From positions 1 through 64,000 of the IMG/VR virus record IMGVR_UViG_3300030090_005798: a DNA stretch of 64,000 bases. One strand, given 5' to 3'. Position 1 is the first letter of the stretch. The number at the start of each line of letters is the position of its first letter. This stretch comes from a virus. Below, one piece after another: positions 16,253 to 58,406 of the stretch. A model generated the notes under the pieces. It saw nothing but the letters and a program-made list of their open reading frames with translations, did no database searches and was not told the origin of the DNA. The translations under genes and the position numbers were made by a program.

Positions 16253-16417
16253 TTATTTATTGTTAAATCTACCTTCGACGCTTTTCCAAAATTCTTCTGC
16301 GCCCACAGCAAGATATCTCCCCTTCAGGTGTTTGTAAAGTTTTTTTTGAATGTGATTGGCATTTTTTTTATCGTATCCAATAAGTTGACGAATTTTCTTA
16401 GCGGCAGATCCACTCAT
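16253..16417 (-). CDS. Small basic protein downstream of the ClpA-like ATPase
   Basis: A 54-residue gene in the 160-base gap between two larger genes. It starts at an ATG that overlaps the ATPase stop (ATGA at 16417-16414) and ends with TAA at 16253-16255, two bases before the next start. The product is basic (SAAKKIRQLIGYDKKNANHI) with a helical N-terminus. The exact coupling on both sides supports it as real. No family recognised; DNA or RNA binding is possible from the charge. Confidence 0.6.
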   Translation of the reverse strand: MSGSAAKKIRQLIGYDKKNANHIQKKLYKHLKGRYLAVGAEEFWKSVEGRFNNK

Positions 16418-18756
16418 GCTTTATGATCAACCTTACTGACGTTTTTTTCAATAAAAAGTTTGATATTCTTTTCTCCTTTTAAAACACTATCAGAAACAAA
16501 GGGGGTTATCTCTGATAATATCTTTTTAGATAAGGCTTCTACTTTTATTTTTTCCTTAAGAATACTTTTAATTGTTTGATTAATATATTTAAAATCGAAA
16601 GTTAAATCAATATCATTGTCCTTTAACCTATTTTTTAATCTTTTTAATTTCATCCATAAAAGTCTCCTCAAGCCCTTCTCGTCAATCTCTTTAAGTGGAA
16701 AGCACTCGTCAACAAGTGAGAGTATGTCTGGGTGAATCATTAGGTTATCTCTGTCCGAAACTGCTCCCTGAAATCCCATAGCAGACTGGCTATTAGATAT
16801 ATCGCTTGTCAGGAATATTTTACAGTTTGTGAAATCTGCCATATCTCCGTTGCTCATCTGAAACTTACCATGCTTAAATATTTGATTGAAAAGCGGAATT
16901 GCAGAATTATCAACTTTGTGGAAATCATCTATGATGATCACGCTATTTGGAGATATTAGAACTTTTTCGCATATAGATGTATTGTTGCCCTGAGATGTCG
17001 CTATCTTATGTGGAGCAAAGGTATCTGCAAAGTGAACACCACTATAGGAGAGAACACTGACTCCATGTTTTTGCAAAGTATCTTTAAACAAGTCTAAAAA
17101 GTAAGATTTACCACTGAATCTTGAGCCACTTATAACATAGCACTCTGGAGCAGAGAAATTGTCAGTCTTTTTTATACCCAAGCTAGATAAAATAATTTTA
17201 TCTTTTAGTTTCTGCAAAAGCTCATCTTGACCTACAAGGGATTTGCTGACACAAGAAAAAACTTTCTCGACCATCTCTTGATCGTTTAAAGGGTTTGTCT
17301 TCTTTTTAAAGAAGTCTTTTAAATGGCATAGTTTTACCTCTGGAATTAAATCTGAAACACCTTCTGTCCATTTTTCTAGGCTTTCGTTTAATTTTTCTAA
17401 AAGTTTTGTGTGGTCTTTTTCAGGGTCTAGAGCCGCAGCCATTGTCTCTTCTTGCTGGCTTTTTATTGATGGCGTAACGTGCCAGAAATTTACTTTAGCC
17501 TGTGCTCCGCAGTGATCAATGATATCAATAGCTTTATCTGGGTAGAATTTATTAGGGATGTATTTTTCGCAGTAATCAATTATGTTTTCTAGAAACTCAT
17601 CAGTATATGTAATGGTATGAAAGTTTTCATAATAAGAAATTATTGTGGGTAAAATTTCTTCCATCTGAAATCTAGATGGCTCTCTAATTATAACGCGCTC
17701 AAACCTGCGATCTAAGGCGGTGTCTTTTTTAATTGTGTTTGTATATTCGTTAATCGTTGTGGCTCCTATACAACTTATTGTTCCTCTGGCAAGCTCTGGC
17801 TTAAGAATGTTAGAGGCTTCTAGAGAGTTGTTTGTTGCCCCTCCTGCACCAATTAAAGTATGAACCTCATCAATAAACAAAATTAAGTTACTATATTTTT
17901 TTGCTTCATTAACAAAGTCTTCTAGTCTTTTCTCAAACTGACCTCTGTATTCTGTCCCAGCAACCATGCTAGATAAACTCACAGAATAAATCACCTTGTT
18001 AGCTATAAGCTCAGGTGCGTCTCCAGCAACAATTTTACAAGCTAAACCCTCCACCAAGGAAGTTTTACCTGTTCCTGCTGGTCCAACAAGAAGCGCGTTA
18101 GGTTTTTTCTTTCTGCAAAGAATTGTAGCTACTTCATCAATTTTACCGTCGAAATCAACTATCTTGTCGAACTCGTTGTTTAACGCTTTTAAATTTAAGT
18201 TTTCTGCAAACTGAGAGAGTATCTCATTCTTGTCGAACATGTCGATCCAGTCTTCAGGGGTATCCACTCTCATTGAAGTAGTTACTCGATCTGGGTCAAA
18301 GTCTTTAACGACTAAAGAGCACTCTGTAACAAATCCTAGAAATACTTCATCCGAAGATTGATCTCCTTTTGGGAAAAGGTTTTTTACAACTTTAGGGGAA
18401 TGCTCATCATCAAAGAAAACCATTAAGATCACCTCTGGGGGTATGTAATCTAGGTTAAAGTTTTCTATAGAAAATTTCTCAGCCTCTTTTAAAAGTTTTC
18501 TAACATCTGTTTTTAGAATCTTTTTTGCGTATTTGTTCTTACGCTTTTTACTTAAAACAGTCCTAGACTCTTTTAATAAGTCCTTGGGGTCTACATTTAC
18601 TTTTTTAAATATAGATGAGCAAGACTGACTTAAGTCACTTAAAAAGCAGTGAAAAAATAGATCTACATCTGCCCCGTTTCTGTATAGAATATTAGAGAGT
18701 TCTTTTGTTTTTTCTATGACTCCCTCAATATGCGGTGTTAAAGGTAATTTAGGCAC
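16414..18756 (-). CDS. ClpA/ClpB-like double AAA+ ATPase without a partner protease
   Basis: 780 residues: an N-terminal helical domain (about 1-140), D1 with Walker A GPAGTGKT (225-232), Walker B LILFIDE (D296, E297) and a DRRFERV arginine finger, a linker, then D2 beginning at LVGQDELL (about 507) with Walker A GSRFSGKS (544-551). Walker B in D2 is IIIDDF, with Asp in place of the usual Glu, so D2 may hydrolyse poorly. Clp ATPases unfold proteins. No ClpP is visible, so it may use the host protease or act as a remodelling factor. GTG start with GGAGGTGAAGG. It overlaps the DnaE gene end by 8 bases, tying it to the replisome. Confidence 0.8.
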   Translation of the reverse strand: MPKLPLTPHIEGVIEKTKELSNILYRNGADVDLFFHCFLSDLSQSCSSIFKKVNVDPKDLLKESRTVLSKKRKNKYAKKILKTDVRKLLKEAEKFSIENFNLDYIPPEVILMVFFDDEHSPKVVKNLFPKGDQSSDEVFLGFVTECSLVVKDFDPDRVTTSMRVDTPEDWIDMFDKNEILSQFAENLNLKALNNEFDKIVDFDGKIDEVATILCRKKKPNALLVGPAGTGKTSLVEGLACKIVAGDAPELIANKVIYSVSLSSMVAGTEYRGQFEKRLEDFVNEAKKYSNLILFIDEVHTLIGAGGATNNSLEASNILKPELARGTISCIGATTINEYTNTIKKDTALDRRFERVIIREPSRFQMEEILPTIISYYENFHTITYTDEFLENIIDYCEKYIPNKFYPDKAIDIIDHCGAQAKVNFWHVTPSIKSQQEETMAAALDPEKDHTKLLEKLNESLEKWTEGVSDLIPEVKLCHLKDFFKKKTNPLNDQEMVEKVFSCVSKSLVGQDELLQKLKDKIILSSLGIKKTDNFSAPECYVISGSRFSGKSYFLDLFKDTLQKHGVSVLSYSGVHFADTFAPHKIATSQGNNTSICEKVLISPNSVIIIDDFHKVDNSAIPLFNQIFKHGKFQMSNGDMADFTNCKIFLTSDISNSQSAMGFQGAVSDRDNLMIHPDILSLVDECFPLKEIDEKGLRRLLWMKLKRLKNRLKDNDIDLTFDFKYINQTIKSILKEKIKVEALSKKILSEITPFVSDSVLKGEKNIKLFIEKNVSKVDHKA

Positions 18757-21310
18757 CCTTCACCTCCCTTAACTTCATGTATATATCTGTCTCCACTGGA
18801 TTTATGTGATCTACAAAAAATGTATCTCTGCTCTTTGATCCATTTAAAACTATAACTTTGTTTTTTGTTAACTTGTATCCGCTTCTTAAGAAGTCAGATA
18901 ATCTCTCTTCTCTAGCGTTGTCCATGAAAAGAAAGTTTTTAGTTGCTGTATTATCACAGATTGAAATCATCATGTATTTGTTACCATTCTGAGATGTCCT
19001 AGTAAAGAAATCTTTTACCTCGCCTACAACTTGGAAGTTTTGTCTGTCTACAAGATCCTCTACTTGCCTCAAGTCGATCAAAGACGAAAATCTATCCTGA
19101 AAGCATTCACGTAGGTTGTGTGAATAACTATAGCCAAGCAAAGAGCTTTCATATCTCCACTTAGCAAACATTTCATGCTTCCTGTTTTGACTATAGATTT
19201 TTTTATACTGATCAAATTTAGTTTTAAATGTTTTAAATCTCTTTTCAGACATGATTGGTCTATTGTCATCTCCAAGAGTTTGTTTCTCTATAACTTCTGA
19301 TATTGCCTTAAGTATGTCGAAGCCAAATCTCTCTCCAATCTTTACAAAGTTTCTCTTTTCTCTATCTGTTAGCAGGTTAAAGGCTTGAGCTTCTAGGACC
19401 ATGCGAGTTCTATTCGTTCTCGCATGATCCATAGTTCCAGCTTGTATAAGAGCCGCAAGCACAGATATGTTGATACCGCACTGTTTAGCTGCCAGAAAAA
19501 CCTCATACTTATTGTTAAATTCTATGCCTCTAAAGTCTATTAGGCTCTGTATTGATTTTAGAGAGATTCCTTTAATGCTATTCAATCCGTAGCGAATATT
19601 GTTGTTTTCAATTGTAAAATCAAAATCAGACTTATATAGGCAAGGAGGTAACATTTCCATGCCGAAATCTGGCAACTCTTCGTTTACCCCAGAAATTGTT
19701 TGTAAAGGTTCTGGATCAAACTCAGCGCACTCAAGAATAGAAAGAAAGAATTCTTGAGGATATTTGTGCTTTAAGTAAACTGTTTTAGCCGCGAGGTCGG
19801 CGTAGGCGAAACTGTGTGACTTATTGAAAGAGTAATGTGAGGCGGCGACTAATGAATTCCAGTAGAAGTCTGCTATCTCTTCACTAAGACCTCTAGATTC
19901 AGCAGCATTGTAAATTGTATCTTTCCACTTAGGCATTTCATCTACTTTTTTCTTGCCTACAATCCTTCTTAACACCTCTGCCTCTTCAAGCGTTAAGCCG
20001 AAAACTTTGTGAGCAATTTGCATTAGTTGCTCTTGATATAGGATCACATTTTTAGACCAAGACAATATCGAGTCTAACTCTGGATTTAAGTTTAACTCAG
20101 ATGGAAATTCTTTTTGTGTTTTATAAACAGAAACAAATTCAAGTGCTGCGGGGCGAGCTAAAGCAACAACATCAGAAAGCTCATTTATATCTTTTGGTTT
20201 TATCTCTCTGCAAACTTTAAAGTTTGTCTCAGCGGAGATCTGAAACAAGCCCATAGGATGTTTGAAATCTTGCAATATCTCATAGATCATCTCGTTATTG
20301 GCATCTATGTCCTCTATGTTTATGCCAACTTTTTCACAAGTTTTGTGAGCGATTGTTAGGGTTCTTAAACCAAGGATGTCGAACTTGACCATGAGGTCTG
20401 CAACGTCATTCATGTCATAACCTGTAACTAAATCTCCATCTTTTGTTTTTTGCAGTGGGACAATATTCTCAATGCTTTCTGAGCAAATCGCGATCCCTGA
20501 TGGGTGAACTCCAGTATTCTTCGGTAAGTTTTCTATTTTTAATGCATTTTTAAATGTCTTCTTGTGATTTTTAACCCACTTTTTGAATTTATCTGCCTCT
20601 TCTCTAGCTTGGCTCAAAGGGAAAACAACCCCATGTAATTTCGGGATCATATCGGAGACTTGGTTAGCCTCATCTTCCTTAGCCTCATCAAAGTATTTTG
20701 TTGCCTCTCTAATGCAAAGTTTTGAACTAAAGGTATTGAATGTTAGAATCTTAGCAGTTCTACCTTCATGCTTTCTCTCGATATATTGTATGACCTTATA
20801 TCGCTGATCATAAGATATATCTGAATCAACATCTGGCAACAAACTGCCGACAAGAAACTCTTTACCTCTTTTGTCGGTGACTTTTTTGGCTCTTGATTTA
20901 GACACAAATCTCTCAAAGAATAAATCGTGAGGGATTGGGTCAATATTAGTTACTCCGAGCAAATATAAAACAAGAGAGCCAGCAGCAGAGCCACGGCCAG
21001 CACCAGTTGGAATATTATTGTCATGACAAAAATTTAAAACGTCCCAGTTGAGTAAGATGTAATCTGTGAACCCAAGTTCTTCAAATGTCTCAAGCTCTTG
21101 CTTTGCTCTTTTATAATAGACCTCTTTATTTTCATATTTTGTAATGCCTTTATCTCTCAATCCCTTTCTAGCAAGCTCATACAAAATATCTTTAGTGGAG
21201 CTATCAGGCCCAAGCCCAATTTCCTCTAATTTATTTATGTCAACGATTGTTTTAGGGAGATCTACTCCCGCAGGTTCACAATCGTCGTATGGTGTAAAAT
21301 CTTCAAACAT
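18749..21310 (-). CDS. dnaE: C-family DNA polymerase catalytic core, PHP domain missing (DnaE-like)
   Basis: 853 residues beginning at the point where full-length DnaE proteins leave the PHP domain. Motif GAGRGSAAGSL (about 103-113), catalytic Asp 160 and 162 in PDVDSD, the third Asp 311 in KFDILGL, a helix-hairpin-helix region and a C-terminal OB-fold (about 750-820) follow in the usual order. Spacing D162-D311 is about as in E. coli DnaE (403-555). The N-terminal PHP-like part is a separate gene (21911-22609), and a DnaQ-type exonuclease gene lies between. No sliding-clamp gene is seen in the window. Starts as TAATG on the exonuclease stop. Confidence 0.9.
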   Translation of the reverse strand: MFEDFTPYDDCEPAGVDLPKTIVDINKLEEIGLGPDSSTKDILYELARKGLRDKGITKYENKEVYYKRAKQELETFEELGFTDYILLNWDVLNFCHDNNIPTGAGRGSAAGSLVLYLLGVTNIDPIPHDLFFERFVSKSRAKKVTDKRGKEFLVGSLLPDVDSDISYDQRYKVIQYIERKHEGRTAKILTFNTFSSKLCIREATKYFDEAKEDEANQVSDMIPKLHGVVFPLSQAREEADKFKKWVKNHKKTFKNALKIENLPKNTGVHPSGIAICSESIENIVPLQKTKDGDLVTGYDMNDVADLMVKFDILGLRTLTIAHKTCEKVGINIEDIDANNEMIYEILQDFKHPMGLFQISAETNFKVCREIKPKDINELSDVVALARPAALEFVSVYKTQKEFPSELNLNPELDSILSWSKNVILYQEQLMQIAHKVFGLTLEEAEVLRRIVGKKKVDEMPKWKDTIYNAAESRGLSEEIADFYWNSLVAASHYSFNKSHSFAYADLAAKTVYLKHKYPQEFFLSILECAEFDPEPLQTISGVNEELPDFGMEMLPPCLYKSDFDFTIENNNIRYGLNSIKGISLKSIQSLIDFRGIEFNNKYEVFLAAKQCGINISVLAALIQAGTMDHARTNRTRMVLEAQAFNLLTDREKRNFVKIGERFGFDILKAISEVIEKQTLGDDNRPIMSEKRFKTFKTKFDQYKKIYSQNRKHEMFAKWRYESSLLGYSYSHNLRECFQDRFSSLIDLRQVEDLVDRQNFQVVGEVKDFFTRTSQNGNKYMMISICDNTATKNFLFMDNAREERLSDFLRSGYKLTKNKVIVLNGSKSRDTFFVDHINPVETDIYMKLREVKGA

Positions 21311-21924
21311 TACAAGTCCATGTGTTTCTTAAGTTTTAAGAAAACTTTATAGCACATCTTGATGTCGTATAATGCATCGTGGAGTTTTTCTTCCTCAAAA
21401 TCTATATCAAAAAACTTTAATAGCTGATTTTGTGACACCTTTGCCTTTAGGGTTCTGTCGTTTATTATTTTATACTGCCAGCTTAACAAATCACCTCTGG
21501 GTTTATCTAGCTCTTCCCTATATGCCTTTGCTAAAGCTCTTGTATCATATATTCTTGGCAAATAAGAGTAATCTGGCTCTTGTCCAAGCATCCTTTGTAA
21601 ATGAGATACCATGTAAACATCAAACCCAAGTAGGTTTTGCCCCACTACAATATATTTTGGGTCAAATAAATATTTCTCAAACTTTGACCAAACAGAAATA
21701 AGAGATTCCGCTTTAGAGTTATATTTATCCCAATCAAAGCCCGTTAGCTTTCTAACAACCTCTGGTATATTTAACTCTTTATGTTTTATAAACTTATCGT
21801 GTGTTTCTAACACTTTGTTTCCTTGACAAATTATCCAAGATAACTGCCAAGTTTTAGAAGAGTGTAAATTTAAACCCTCCGTCTCTGTATCGAATACTAA
21901 ATATTTTTGATTACTTGGCAACAT
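21310..21924 (-). CDS. dnaQ: DnaQ-type 3'-5' proofreading exonuclease
   Basis: 204 residues with the DEDDh fold: LVFDTETEGLN supplies Asp12 and Glu14, an NLLGFDVYM strand holds the second Asp, and HDALYD (His182, Asp187) is the ExoIII motif. This is the proofreading subunit of a C-family polymerase. It lies between the two halves of the split polymerase and overlaps both neighbours (14 bases with the PHP-like gene, one with DnaE), so the three are made together. A clamp-binding motif was not found by eye. Confidence 0.85.
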   Translation of the reverse strand: MLPSNQKYLVFDTETEGLNLHSSKTWQLSWIICQGNKVLETHDKFIKHKELNIPEVVRKLTGFDWDKYNSKAESLISVWSKFEKYLFDPKYIVVGQNLLGFDVYMVSHLQRMLGQEPDYSYLPRIYDTRALAKAYREELDKPRGDLLSWQYKIINDRTLKAKVSQNQLLKFFDIDFEEEKLHDALYDIKMCYKVFLKLKKHMDL

Positions 21925-22609
21925 TTTCTAAAAAAGATTCATAGCTAAACTCATCAGAACAGAAATCGTTTAGTCTTGGGTTACTGTATGTTGGAACTCT
22001 GCCCTGTTTCCTGTTGCATATGGCTTTATACATTTGGAAAGCTTCAAAATCCTCTTTATTTCTATAATAGATGCTTTTTGCTTTTTCTGTTTTTACATTC
22101 AGCTTTTTGAGAGCGTTACTGATTTGGAAATCAAAAGGATGATTATTAGATTCCTCTATGTAAAAGTGATCATACTTGTCTAGCCAAAGATCACACATGC
22201 CAAAATGAAAAATATTGTTGAATACATAAGAGTCATAAAACGGCACTCCAATACTGATGTCATCAAGCTCTCCCTCGCCCAGATCTGACATGTTTAAATA
22301 TTCTCCTACGCTTGTAAAGCATTTAGTATAAAGGTTTCTAGCAACAGCTACGCCTTTGTTGTTTTTAGGGAAGAAAATTAGTTTACTGGGCTTTTCGGTA
22401 ATACTTGAATGAACAACAGGCAACTTAACTCCATAGACCATAGGAACTTCTATGTGAAGAAATGCTTTATTTATTACCCTGAATCCGTAGAAATTATCTT
22501 CTACTAAAATCATCTTCTTAACATCACCGCTTTGTGCAATGTCTACTAAATCCTCAACCCTCAGAAGGGATCGTCCTATGCTGAAGGTGCTTTTAAATAA
22601 TGGTATCAC
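21911..22609 (-). CDS. Separate degenerate PHP domain of the DNA polymerase
   Basis: 232 residues. The order of strands and loops matches the N-terminal PHP domain of DnaE: a first strand LFKSTFSIGRSLL, EDLVDIAQSGDVKKMILVEDN (canonical ...LALTDHGN), FRVINKAFLHIEVPMVYGVKLPV (canonical KPIIGCEV) and a later RNLYTKCFTS. The His, Asp and Glu residues that bind metal in active PHP domains are mostly replaced, so it is probably structural. It would dock on the 853-residue core. GTG start directly on an AGGAG sequence, so the exact start is uncertain. The homology is read by eye and is the weakest link in the split-polymerase reading. Confidence 0.55.
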   Translation of the reverse strand: MIPLFKSTFSIGRSLLRVEDLVDIAQSGDVKKMILVEDNFYGFRVINKAFLHIEVPMVYGVKLPVVHSSITEKPSKLIFFPKNNKGVAVARNLYTKCFTSVGEYLNMSDLGEGELDDISIGVPFYDSYVFNNIFHFGMCDLWLDKYDHFYIEESNNHPFDFQISNALKKLNVKTEKAKSIYYRNKEDFEAFQMYKAICNRKQGRVPTYSNPRLNDFCSDEFSYESFLENVAK

Positions 22610-53186: not shown

Positions 53187-56100
53187 TTATTTTCCTTTCG
53201 CTCTATCTAATTCTGCCTGTGCATCTCTTATTAGACCTTGCGCTGTTTTTATAGCCTCTTCTGCGTCTAAAATTGTTTGATTGTTTGTGCTGATCAGACC
53301 CGCTATAGTCTCTGTTTTCTGAACATCCATTCTAATTGGCTTAATAGACTCCTCTGCGTTTGTGGCCAATTGTTGCATTGCATTTTTCGCATCAATAACA
53401 GATTGAGCGAATTCGCCAGCCTCTTCATCGTTAAGAAGATTTTCAATATTCTTTTTCGTAGTTGCTAATTTTTGTTCAATTGCTTTAGCTTCTTCTCTTA
53501 GTTTTGTGTCCAGATCAGTAGTGTCTATTCCTTTATCTCTCAAATAGTCAGGCATCATAGCTCCAGTAAGCTTCTTACCTGCTGCTGTTTCTGCTCCTCC
53601 AAGACCAACTTTCACCACATCGGTTAACACTCCCCTTAGTTCTTTCGCGGTGATACTAGGATCAAATTGTCGTATTAAATCCTCAACCTTAACGCCAAGC
53701 CCCTGATCATCAAACTCAGAAATCATTTGACCTAAAGCCTCTTTATCCATCTTTTCTCCTTTATTTATTTCACTTACAATGTCTCCAACTTGTTGTCCCA
53801 TAAAGTCCATGTCTAAAGCTTCTCCTCCAAATATATTTTTAATTGTATCTGCTGCTGATGAAATAGACTTGGCTAAAGTTTCTTCAATCTTTTTGGCATT
53901 TTCTGCCTTCATCTCCTCAATCTCAGTCATCTTAACTTGGAAGCCAGCCATCGCTGTTTTAACGGCTGTTTCAAAAGCTATTCCAGAGGACTTCACTTTG
54001 GCTCTCTCCTCTCCCACGGCAGCTAAGTAAGCATCTCCCTGCGCCCTAGCCTCATCCGTAAGCTCACCAGCCTGTCCACCCTCAATCATACCCGCAATCT
54101 CTCTTACAACATCAGGGATTAAATTTTTATTGTCTACACTACCAAAAAAGTTGCCTTCCTTTGTTGCTAAATTACTTTGAGCAAGACCAAATTTAGCCCT
54201 TGTAGAATCTACTCCTGCTATAGTTAAGTCTTGTTGAGCAGAAAGCTTCGACGCTCCTTTCATTGGCCCTGTAATAGCATCTGCTAATATGTTTCTTATT
54301 GAAGCCTCTCTTAAATTTTCTTCAGCTACCTCTACGGCTTTTTGGCTTATAGCAGCCAGTTCTCTTTGTGCAGCAACAATTTGTTTTTGTGCCTCAAGAC
54401 TAGCCCTTGCAAACTCTAACTCTGCTTTTTCAATACCTTCTTTGTCTTTAAGTAATTGACCTTCAGAAAGCTGCGCTCCTTTAAGAAGGATATTCTTAAC
54501 TTTTCGTTGAGCCATCGACAAATCCCTTTGTGCTTGGTTGAGTTCAATGGTTGATTCTCCATCTTCCAACTTACTTTCTTCTAAAGCTACAGCACTTGCA
54601 AATCTTGCCATCTCTTGCCTTGCGTTTGTGAGTTCTGTCACAAACTCTGGTGTCGCATTGCCAGTTTTTACTAATCTCTCATTAAACTTGTTGGTTGCTT
54701 TTTTAAAGTCTTCTCCAAAACCCATTTCTGCAAGCTCGCTTGGTAGAAAACTATCTATTCTCTGATTGAGTAGGTCTATTGGATTTGATCCATCTCCTGC
54801 CCCTCCTGCCGCAGCACCGCCTATCGCTTGACCAGCTTTCCCTACCCCAAAAGCTCCTAATATACCCGCTCCAAGTCCTATCGCACCGCCAGCAAGATTT
54901 CCAATTCCTGGAGCGAAACTTCCCAACGCCATTCCAGTAAGCGCGCTTGCACCTATACCTCCCAAGGTTGCTCCTATACCACCTCCCAATGCTCTTCCTT
55001 TTTGATATCTTTTATCTTGCCTACTTATATCTTGTCTTTTTTCTATATTAGATATCTCGCTTGCTGTAAGGGCTATCCCTGCTACTGTTCCAGCAATACC
55101 AAATTTTGTCCCCGTTCCCATGCCTCCTTTGTTTTGGTTTAACATAGCTGCCTTAAGCTTTGGATCTTTAGAAGCGGCAGCAAATGATCCACCTACTGTC
55201 CTAACACCTCCTATCTTACTCGGAGCGATAGAGGGTGTCCTTCTACCAAAAAATCCTCCACCAGAGCCTCTTCCAGAAACATCTCCTGCCCCTTGTCCTC
55301 TGAATGCTAGAAGCATAGCTACAGTAGAACCAACACCAGCTAAACGCATAAGCATTTCTGAAGAGCTTTGTAGGACAGTCCTTTGCTCTTTTAAGCTTTG
55401 TGTTAACTCATCTCTTGCCATCAACTCGTCTGAAACAGCTAAGACTCCTTTCTCAGCAATAGCCTCTTGAGTATTCATTAATTCTTTAGAACTTTCGTTC
55501 ATAGAATCAAGTAGAGCATGTTGTTGCTCCATCTTTGCTGTAACTGTTCCAGCAGCCGAAGTTAAACCCATGAACGCTATGCCAAGAGTCGTCATTCTAT
55601 TTTCAGCCTTAAATAATCCTTTAGTAAATCTAAGGAGCGCTGGACCCGCTTTGGCCACATTATAATTCGGAACAAATCCACCAGCAAACATTCCAACGCC
55701 ATTCCGCTCTCGCTTTATAGCATCTTGTAAACCATTTGGTTCATCTCTTAAGTTTGTTACTGCAACAGGTTCACCTTGATCGTCTTTGTGAACTCTCATC
55801 AAAGACATAGGAACTCCACCTCTTCTAGTGAAGTTTGGTATAAATCCTCTAGCTCTTCTTTTCTCGTTTTTAACCTTTGTCTTCCCTTTACCTATTTCTA
55901 TTCGACCAGCTACGTTATCAATAATTTGTTTAACATATTTAGTCTTGTTTCCAATACTGTCTGAAGATTTAAAATCTCCAAACTCAAAATTCATGTCTTG
56001 TAGACCAAAGATTAATTCTAGATCTTTTCTAGCTTTATCAAATTGAATATCTAGCTGTCCTTTATCTTGAGCAACTCCTCCTGTAATAGCTTGAATAACA

Positions 56101-58406
56101 CCCTCAAAAATCGCTCCTTTAATAGCTCCAAAAGCCCCAGCGCCACCTTTCTCTAATATTTTTGTTACTTCTCCACCTTTGTAACTTTTTGGTTTTGTTT
56201 TTACCCCAGTTTTAGAAACCAAAAGATTTAAGCTCTCATTTACTGCGGCAGCTAGATTATCCTCAATGGTTTCTTTTATATCTAGCAAGTGACCAAATTT
56301 TTTATTCCCCTTTAAGTTGGGGCTAATTCCAGCCATACCTCCTTCGAAGAAATCGATTTGCTTTCTTCCATACGGCGTTGCAAATTTATGATCTGCCTTA
56401 TTAGATGCAAATCCCATCTCTTCTGGGATAATCATAACAGCCTTGTTAGGCTTATTATTAGCATAATATGTTTTCTTACCTGCCGCCGAGTCTCTTTTTG
56501 CAATCAGTGCTGCTCCTAATCTGCTGTTAGGATTAGCAATTGCATTTCTAACTTTATCTGTTTTTGGATTACCATCTGCATCAAAAAACTGAGACCGAGG
56601 TCTATTATTAACAGTATCGATATCTAAATAATTAGGAACAAACCCTCTAGGATATCTTGGTATTACAGCAGAATCTCTTCCTCCTGCAAAATTTCTTATC
56701 TCATCCTCTTGATTATTCATGATGAACCTTTGTCCACCAATTGTTCCTTTACCCATATGAGCCTTAACACTTTGGCTAGCCCCAAGCATCATTGCCTCTG
56801 CTTCTTCTGCCCTAAAACCAGCATTAAATCTTCTCCCCCCTCTGCCGCCAAAACCTCCAGTATCGCTAAACCCTCTAACCCCTCTTGCGGCAGCAGCATT
56901 AGCTAAAGACCTCATTAATTGAGCCTGTTGCGATAGCAAAGCATTTTCTCTTTTGATAGCTTGTATAACAGCCTGTTCTCTTTGAGCTTGCGTTAGCGTA
57001 GTATTTGCCATTTGCTTTCTCAGCATGTCATCTTTCTGAAGAAGCTGAACTATACCACCCTCAATTTGTTTTACTCTTTCTGTTTGAGTCCCCATTTGGA
57101 AAAGAGTTTTTAAACCCTCTCCAGCAAATCTAGCAACAAGTTTAGTAATCTTTACAAAAGCCGTTGTAAATATAACAATAGCAGGACCACTTAAAAATGT
57201 TCCAATAGCCTTAAAAAATCCTTTTATAAAAGTGTTTCCTTTTTCTGGGTCTAATGCATTGTCTAAAAATTCTGTAAATTTGGTAGCTATACCAACTAAA
57301 CTTTCAAGAACAGGACCAAAAGTCAAACTACCAACTTTCTCTGCCAAACTTGTCAAGCCAACAACTAATGCATTTATATTAGAAGCAAGACTTTCTCCTA
57401 ACGCTTTATTTTTTTCAAAAGCCTCATTAGTGGCTGTCGCTGCGGTTGTAGCAGCATCTCTAAATATCCCAGTTTCACTACTCAAATCTTTAAGAGCAGC
57501 ACTAACCACGTTAATCTGGAAGACACCACCTGCGAGTTCTTTTATTTTAGAAACGACAGTGGGATCGGATATGCCTTCTATAGCATTTGATAAAGCATTT
57601 AGTTTTTGAACCCCTGTTTGAGTTGCATCAATTTGAACTCCTAATTCTTTTAATTCTTCTATAGTTGTTCCCCTAGCTAATCTAGTAAAAATAGATTTAA
57701 ATGCGTTACCAATAACCGCTCCACCCCTAGCTGTCTTTTGCTCAACAGCAGTGACTAAAGCCAAAAGTTCATCAAAACTAACTCCAGCATCCTCTGCTGT
57801 GGAACCAGCACGGCTAAATGCTTCTGCTAAGTCTTGAGCAGACACAGCGAAAGCCGTATCAACAGCAACCATTTTATTTACAATTTCTGTATGCTTTAAA
57901 CCAGCAGACTCAAAACCATTAATAGCGGCGGTTAATGCCTTAACTGACTTTTCTGCATCTAAACCAGATATCCTAGTTAACACCAACGCAGATTTCAATC
58001 TTGAGGCAGTTTCTTCAGCATTCAAACCTTGACGAGCTAACTCTGCTGCTCCATCTGCAACAGTCGCAAATGATTGTCCCGTTTCTTTAGCAACTTGAAA
58101 TATAGAATTTCTAAACCTGTTAAAGCTTGTTTCTGTGGCTTGAAATATAGAATTAACTTCAATAAGTCTTTTTTCAACTTCAATAGTCGTAGAAATTAAT
58201 TTTTTAAAGGATTGAGTAACTCCATTTAAAACAGCAGTTGTCGCTCCGAACGCAAAAACACGCGCAGTTGAGGCATCCAGAGATTTTTGGAATTCTGAAG
58301 CCTGTCCTGTAATTCTACCTAAAGCTTGCTTAACCTGCTTTGTAGAAGCATTTAAGCTAGCAGTATTTAGCGAAACATTTAGTGAAGCATTAAAACTTTG
58401 TGCCAT
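53187..58406 (-). CDS. Tail tape-measure protein, TP901 family, with an embedded nuclease-like domain
   Basis: 1739 residues. Residues about 75-270 are the TP901 core (ETGQSFATVADGAAELARQG, then IGNAFKSIFTRLARGTTIEE). A region of glycines and hydrophobic stretches near 1140-1240 is the probable membrane-active part. Between three copies of a (R/G)GF(V/I)PN(Y/F) motif (residues 588, 854 and 910) lies a globular domain with E768, D786 and D811-x-K813, the spacing of a PD-(D/E)XK nuclease. The long C-terminal part is helical coiled coil. It sets tail length and passes into the host during infection. ATG behind an ATAGGTGTAA element. Confidence 0.9.
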   Translation of the reverse strand: MAQSFNASLNVSLNTASLNASTKQVKQALGRITGQASEFQKSLDASTARVFAFGATTAVLNGVTQSFKKLISTTIEVEKRLIEVNSIFQATETSFNRFRNSIFQVAKETGQSFATVADGAAELARQGLNAEETASRLKSALVLTRISGLDAEKSVKALTAAINGFESAGLKHTEIVNKMVAVDTAFAVSAQDLAEAFSRAGSTAEDAGVSFDELLALVTAVEQKTARGGAVIGNAFKSIFTRLARGTTIEELKELGVQIDATQTGVQKLNALSNAIEGISDPTVVSKIKELAGGVFQINVVSAALKDLSSETGIFRDAATTAATATNEAFEKNKALGESLASNINALVVGLTSLAEKVGSLTFGPVLESLVGIATKFTEFLDNALDPEKGNTFIKGFFKAIGTFLSGPAIVIFTTAFVKITKLVARFAGEGLKTLFQMGTQTERVKQIEGGIVQLLQKDDMLRKQMANTTLTQAQREQAVIQAIKRENALLSQQAQLMRSLANAAAARGVRGFSDTGGFGGRGGRRFNAGFRAEEAEAMMLGASQSVKAHMGKGTIGGQRFIMNNQEDEIRNFAGGRDSAVIPRYPRGFVPNYLDIDTVNNRPRSQFFDADGNPKTDKVRNAIANPNSRLGAALIAKRDSAAGKKTYYANNKPNKAVMIIPEEMGFASNKADHKFATPYGRKQIDFFEGGMAGISPNLKGNKKFGHLLDIKETIEDNLAAAVNESLNLLVSKTGVKTKPKSYKGGEVTKILEKGGAGAFGAIKGAIFEGVIQAITGGVAQDKGQLDIQFDKARKDLELIFGLQDMNFEFGDFKSSDSIGNKTKYVKQIIDNVAGRIEIGKGKTKVKNEKRRARGFIPNFTRRGGVPMSLMRVHKDDQGEPVAVTNLRDEPNGLQDAIKRERNGVGMFAGGFVPNYNVAKAGPALLRFTKGLFKAENRMTTLGIAFMGLTSAAGTVTAKMEQQHALLDSMNESSKELMNTQEAIAEKGVLAVSDELMARDELTQSLKEQRTVLQSSSEMLMRLAGVGSTVAMLLAFRGQGAGDVSGRGSGGGFFGRRTPSIAPSKIGGVRTVGGSFAAASKDPKLKAAMLNQNKGGMGTGTKFGIAGTVAGIALTASEISNIEKRQDISRQDKRYQKGRALGGGIGATLGGIGASALTGMALGSFAPGIGNLAGGAIGLGAGILGAFGVGKAGQAIGGAAAGGAGDGSNPIDLLNQRIDSFLPSELAEMGFGEDFKKATNKFNERLVKTGNATPEFVTELTNARQEMARFASAVALEESKLEDGESTIELNQAQRDLSMAQRKVKNILLKGAQLSEGQLLKDKEGIEKAELEFARASLEAQKQIVAAQRELAAISQKAVEVAEENLREASIRNILADAITGPMKGASKLSAQQDLTIAGVDSTRAKFGLAQSNLATKEGNFFGSVDNKNLIPDVVREIAGMIEGGQAGELTDEARAQGDAYLAAVGEERAKVKSSGIAFETAVKTAMAGFQVKMTEIEEMKAENAKKIEETLAKSISSAADTIKNIFGGEALDMDFMGQQVGDIVSEINKGEKMDKEALGQMISEFDDQGLGVKVEDLIRQFDPSITAKELRGVLTDVVKVGLGGAETAAGKKLTGAMMPDYLRDKGIDTTDLDTKLREEAKAIEQKLATTKKNIENLLNDEEAGEFAQSVIDAKNAMQQLATNAEESIKPIRMDVQKTETIAGLISTNNQTILDAEEAIKTAQGLIRDAQAELDRAKGK

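Follow-up and report, generated by a model that had tools for sequence, protein, structure and literature searches.

C-family DNA polymerases are described as carrying the PHP, palm, thumb and fingers domains in a single polypeptide, in which the PHP domain is invariably present and its role unclear (PMC3666897). A locus in an uncultured virus raises the question of whether such a polymerase can be divided over three genes, with the PHP domain and a proofreading exonuclease encoded apart from the catalytic core. The window, meaning the whole stretch of 64,000 nt that was analysed, belongs to a virus record of 77,798 bases (IMGVR_UViG_3300030090_005798) that contains a terminase gene. On the minus strand, the three genes are transcribed in the order PHP chain, exonuclease, polymerase core, and they overlap in different frames (Table 1). 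A preliminary description of the window, made from the letters alone, had already proposed a replicative polymerase in three overlapping genes with the exonuclease in the middle, and the coordinates and both overlaps were confirmed. Genes upstream on the same strand encode a RecA-like protein, a DnaB-like helicase, a DnaG-like primase and a PD-(D/E)XK nuclease. Polymerases of family A or B were not detected in the 77.8-kb record. Downstream, the gene of a 780-aa ClpA/B-like AAA protein (phrog_4871, window 16414-18756) directly overlaps the end of the core gene, and the minus strand of the window also bears a 1739-aa frame (53187-58406).

Table 1. Polymerase genes and their junctions in the window, and genes inserted between the corresponding genes of relatives (given by locus label and position)
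Feature	Coordinates	Strand	Remarks
PHP chain, 232 aa	22609-21911	minus	GTG start; DnaE PHP domain as its own protein; metal ligands lost
DEDDh 3'-5' exonuclease, 204 aa	21924-21310	minus	closest to PolC exonuclease domain; epsilon-type tail absent
C-family polymerase core (DnaE-type), 853 aa	21310-18749	minus	palm, thumb, fingers, HhH, C-terminal OB fold; without PHP and without tau-binding C-terminal domain
PHP/exonuclease overlap, 14 nt	21911..21924	minus	junction sequence AAATGTTGCCAAGTAA
Exonuclease/core overlap, 1 nt, TAATG	21310..21310	minus	junction sequence TTGTAATGTTT
Free-standing LAGLIDADG homing endonuclease genes	L019:8748-9662, L080:4402-5241, L139:6749-7543, L079:5078-5857		at PHP/exonuclease or exonuclease/core junctions
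IMP dehydrogenase/GMP reductase-like gene	L165:6717-7685		between PHP and exonuclease
SET-domain gene	L177:6710-7213		between PHP and exonuclease

Identity of the three chains

The core protein matches Pfam DNA_pol3_alpha with 208 bits and the phage DnaE profile phrog_405 at positions 331-1082 of 1190 (6.7e-164), with nothing before position 331. The equivalents of the catalytic Asp residues of DnaE (D160, D162 and D311) are invariant among 19 aligned family members. An AlphaFold2 model of the core (pLDDT 83.3) could be aligned with E. coli alpha 266-1075 over 735 residues (Z 27.8, rmsd 7.0) and with Taq alpha 284-1123 over 713 residues (Z 34.0, rmsd 4.7), and its residues 720-843 match OB-fold chains with Z about 11-12. 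The core thus begins at about residue 266-270 of E. coli alpha and ends at about 1075 of 1160, from which span it follows that it comprises palm, thumb, fingers, HhH and a C-terminal OB fold and is devoid of both the PHP domain and the tau-binding C-terminal domain. Both statements of the preliminary description on this protein, namely that it has the C-family catalytic Asp residues and that it starts just past the PHP domain, therefore stand.

The 232-aa protein encoded by the first gene is less readily recognized. Its score against Pfam PHP is 18 bits, under the cut-off of 26.4, and it matches positions 50-274 of phrog_405 with 2e-5. PF02811 is however matched by all 37 aligned relatives of the PHP chain (best value 5e-10); of the eight relatives' records that were searched, four pass the Pfam cut-off by themselves and one more passes it when frame neighbours are included. 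Profile-profile comparison (hhalign) with the PHP regions of E. coli and phage DnaE gave an E-value of 4e-13. As the sequence profile of the PHP alignment yielded chance matches only when compared with PDB sequences, a comparison of folds was needed. The first matches of the AlphaFold2 model (pLDDT 80.6, pTM 0.82) are the PHP domains of DnaE and PolC: residues 1-232 align with E. coli alpha 6-248 (Z 17.1, 223 residues, rmsd 3.9), and the closest non-polymerase PHP proteins reach Z about 10-11 compared with about 16-17 for DnaE PHP domains. The alignment with PolC covers residues 342-786 and spans PolC's exonuclease insert. We conclude that the chain is a DnaE-type PHP domain excised whole. The profile search that the preliminary description had suggested as a check on its PHP-like assignment hence returned the similarity, and an intact PHP domain elsewhere, which it had named as a finding that would speak against the split, was not detected by phrog_405: in the 77.8-kb record this profile matched just the two places described here, with no second DnaE-type PHP or core. 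A Pfam PHP search of the same record found nothing; the window's PHP chain is itself below the sensitivity of that search, so that a divergent PHP domain could escape it.

With the PHP chain aligned to residues 6-248 and the core to 266-1075, the two proteins between them cover E. coli alpha from about residue 6 to 1075, and the cut sits in the linker between the end of the PHP domain at about 248 and the start of the palm part at about 266-270. An active PHP domain is defined by nine metal ligands, HHDHEHCDH. All seven of these positions that could be aligned are substituted in the PHP chain, the remaining two being not alignable: in the window K, R, D, K, K, S and Y replace H, D, H, E, H, D and H, and Lys or Arg occupies four of the nine positions in all or most members of the clade. 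Since all alignable metal ligands are gone, the PHP chain is probably a non-catalytic scaffold. It is nevertheless under strong purifying selection, with a dN/dS of about 0.02 (unsaturated synonymous sites) that equals that of the core. The PHP domain of E. coli alpha, whose metal site is likewise incomplete, stabilizes the polymerase and supports its full activity (PMC3666897), and binding of epsilon is one known function of PHP domains (PMC3919608).

The 204-aa protein encoded by the middle gene matches Pfam RNase_T with 4.9e-14 and has a complete DEDDh catalytic set (D12, E14, D102, H182 and D187) that is invariant or nearly so in its relatives. Among NCBIfam models it is matched best by those of PolC, as are most relatives, and it matches the exonuclease domain of PolC better than epsilon. 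The C-terminal tail of epsilon ties it to the clamp and to the PHP domain. Just 17 residues lie beyond the last catalytic Asp, in the window's protein as in 79 of 80 distinct relatives, compared with 76 in E. coli epsilon, which means that the tail binding clamp and PHP is missing.

Distribution and conservation of the arrangement

Single-sequence searches of IMG/VR gave 47 and 41 loci, and by profile the PHP chain has at least 518 relatives in viral contigs; the clade, a large, uncultured and partly marine phage group, looks widespread. In 92 of 103 distinct related loci from many metagenomes the complete order PHP, exonuclease, core recurs, and the others are mostly cut by contig ends or have a broken core. 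PHP and core were in no case (0/103) found in one fused frame, no locus long enough to tell is without the PHP chain, and the exonuclease gene lies between the two in every complete locus. The identical 14-nt overlap of PHP and exonuclease genes occurs in 100 fetched loci (a redundant count), and TAATG or TGATG is frequent at the exonuclease/core junction. Core identities to the window's protein go down to 37%. The three-gene arrangement is old, conserved and maintained. A minority of relatives have the three genes 0.1-3.4 kb apart, the largest gap lying between PHP and exonuclease, and in about ten relatives the intervening DNA consists of longer stretches or of intact genes, among them LAGLIDADG endonuclease, IMPDH-like and SET-domain genes. 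These insertions demonstrate that we are dealing with three separate genes and not with pieces awaiting frameshifting. In two relatives the core itself is found in two frames, about 100-230 nt apart (L139:8154-11201 and L176:7372-10576).

When about 50,700 deposited phage records were searched at protein level, with the exonuclease and three PHP chains as queries, no member of the clade came up. With the core as query 1,337 records were matched, all below 60% identity and at about 23-33% among the matches listed. Matches in genome contigs fall in metagenome-assembled genomes of many taxa and are probably phage contigs that were binned with them.

A proposed replicase of three chains and its alternatives

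Taken together, we consider it probable, at roughly three chances in four, that the phage encodes its own replicative DnaE-type C-family polymerase as three polypeptides, with the PHP domain acting in trans and the exonuclease seated on it. This reading is supported by the family and fold identity of each chain, the neighbourhood of replication genes, the complete loci in the absence of any fusion, and the low dN/dS of the PHP chain. We infer that the three chains assemble physically: the PHP chain would pack in trans against the core at the position it has in DnaE, would stabilize it, and would provide the seat for an exonuclease that has no tail by which to be tethered to PHP and clamp. The outcome would be a PHP-exonuclease-core replicase in which the proofreader docks directly. 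Two findings count against a three-chain replicase. The exonuclease is without the tail required for the known mode of PHP binding, and a search for a bacterial-type beta clamp (PF02768) was negative in the 77.8-kb record and in the records of eight relatives (85-178 kb; L001, L012, L014, L018, L026, L028, L077 and L079), all of which may be incomplete. Going further, we tentatively suggest that the PHP chain could be a separate, non-catalytic subunit that serves as a detachable exonuclease scaffold and lets the phage regulate proofreading of the core, which would make this a three-subunit C-family replicase of an undescribed kind.

The evidence was also weighed against other explanations. The basic residues at the former metal site, together with the distance of up to 3.4 kb between PHP and exonuclease genes in some relatives, would fit a PHP chain that is no longer a polymerase subunit but has taken up a new job, for example binding of nucleic acid or protein, and is kept adjacent by operon inheritance. 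We regard this as unlikely, as the fold is still closest to DnaE PHP domains in Z, the chain is retained wherever a locus is long enough to tell, and all C-family polymerases have been described with a PHP domain (PMC3666897). Quite improbable is also that the exonuclease is a separate repair or recycling nuclease, co-transcribed by chance and acting outside the polymerase; the absence of an epsilon-type tail would be in line with this, but the best match is a proofreading domain, that of PolC, and no complete locus has the gene anywhere but between PHP and core.

The overlap of the genes in different frames could in principle indicate that the frames are joined into one chain during expression, by programmed frameshifting or splicing. 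However, the junctions are ordinary stop/start overlaps such as TAATG, intact genes or longer stretches intervene in about ten relatives, and a fused frame is seen in none of the loci, which renders joining very improbable. An error of sequencing or assembly, or gene decay, has nothing in its favour beyond the unusual arrangement and is scarcely conceivable in view of the same arrangement in distinct loci from many metagenomes and the strong purifying selection. Frameshift fusion and assembly artefact were, for practical purposes, ruled out by the junctions, the inserted genes and the 103-locus census. A clade with a metal-less PHP domain as its own protein, which contrasts with the description of C-family polymerases as always carrying PHP in the same chain (PMC3666897), would allow the role of this domain to be tested by omission and add-back, without cutting an existing protein.

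Comparison with known C-family polymerases

The proposed three-chain polymerase resembles bacterial DnaE with a separate DnaQ (epsilon) in its catalytic Asp residues, in the order of palm, thumb, fingers, HhH and OB, and in having a separate DEDDh exonuclease; the degenerate metal site of the PHP domain is shared with E. coli DnaE. It differs from DnaE/DnaQ in that PHP is a separate gene product, the tau-binding C-terminal domain is absent and the exonuclease has no epsilon tail. With PolC it has in common an exonuclease that matches PolC's exonuclease domain best, and the encoding order PHP, exonuclease, core. PolC, however, is a single chain with an N-terminal OB fold, in which the exonuclease interrupts the PHP domain, whereas here separate genes encode an uninterrupted PHP domain, an exonuclease and a core whose OB fold is at the C-terminus, like that of DnaE. 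The earlier suggestion that the gene order mirrors PolC's domain order is accordingly weak: the kind of exonuclease agrees and the order does so loosely, but the architecture differs, as the exonuclease gene follows an uninterrupted PHP domain and both core and OB fold are DnaE-like.

For phages that encode PHP apart from DnaE, the literature gave only partial precedents (PMC7302621, PMC7824862), Kazlauskas and Venclovas 2011 being outside the coverage. In jumbo phages of group 2.2, two proteins make up a minimal Pol III alpha (PMC7824862), so that these phages likewise have a C-family polymerase from more than one protein. In contrast to the present split, theirs is cut inside the catalytic module, the genes are distant and occur beside a family B polymerase, and other Pol III domains are absent (PMC7824862). 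In Microbacterium phages of cluster EF, two Pol III alpha genes were noted without further analysis (PMC7302621).

A comparison with 15 other C-family phage loci showed 10 with a single chain, 3 cut inside the polymerase and 2, both from actinophages, with PHP and core separate. None of the 15 has an exonuclease gene in the middle or an exonuclease of the clade's type within about 4 kb. The actinophage cases (Gordonia phage Djokovic gp64/gp66 and Microbacterium phage RikSengupta gp61/gp63) share with our clade the separate genes for PHP and core, but these flank a small unknown gene instead of an exonuclease gene. In the tree the actinophage polymerases branch separately from our clade, together with a fused phage polymerase (100/99). 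A common origin of the two splits was rejected, since a grouping of all split cores gave p-AU 0.0016, with the caveat of long branches. Because the tree sets the actinophage split apart, separation of PHP from the core seems to have arisen in at least two independent events. The actinophage PHP proteins (Djokovic gp64, L102; RikSengupta gp61, L099) differ from the PHP chain in a further respect: they keep nine of nine metal ligands and match PF02811 with about 130 bits, and on these grounds may be active nucleases in trans.
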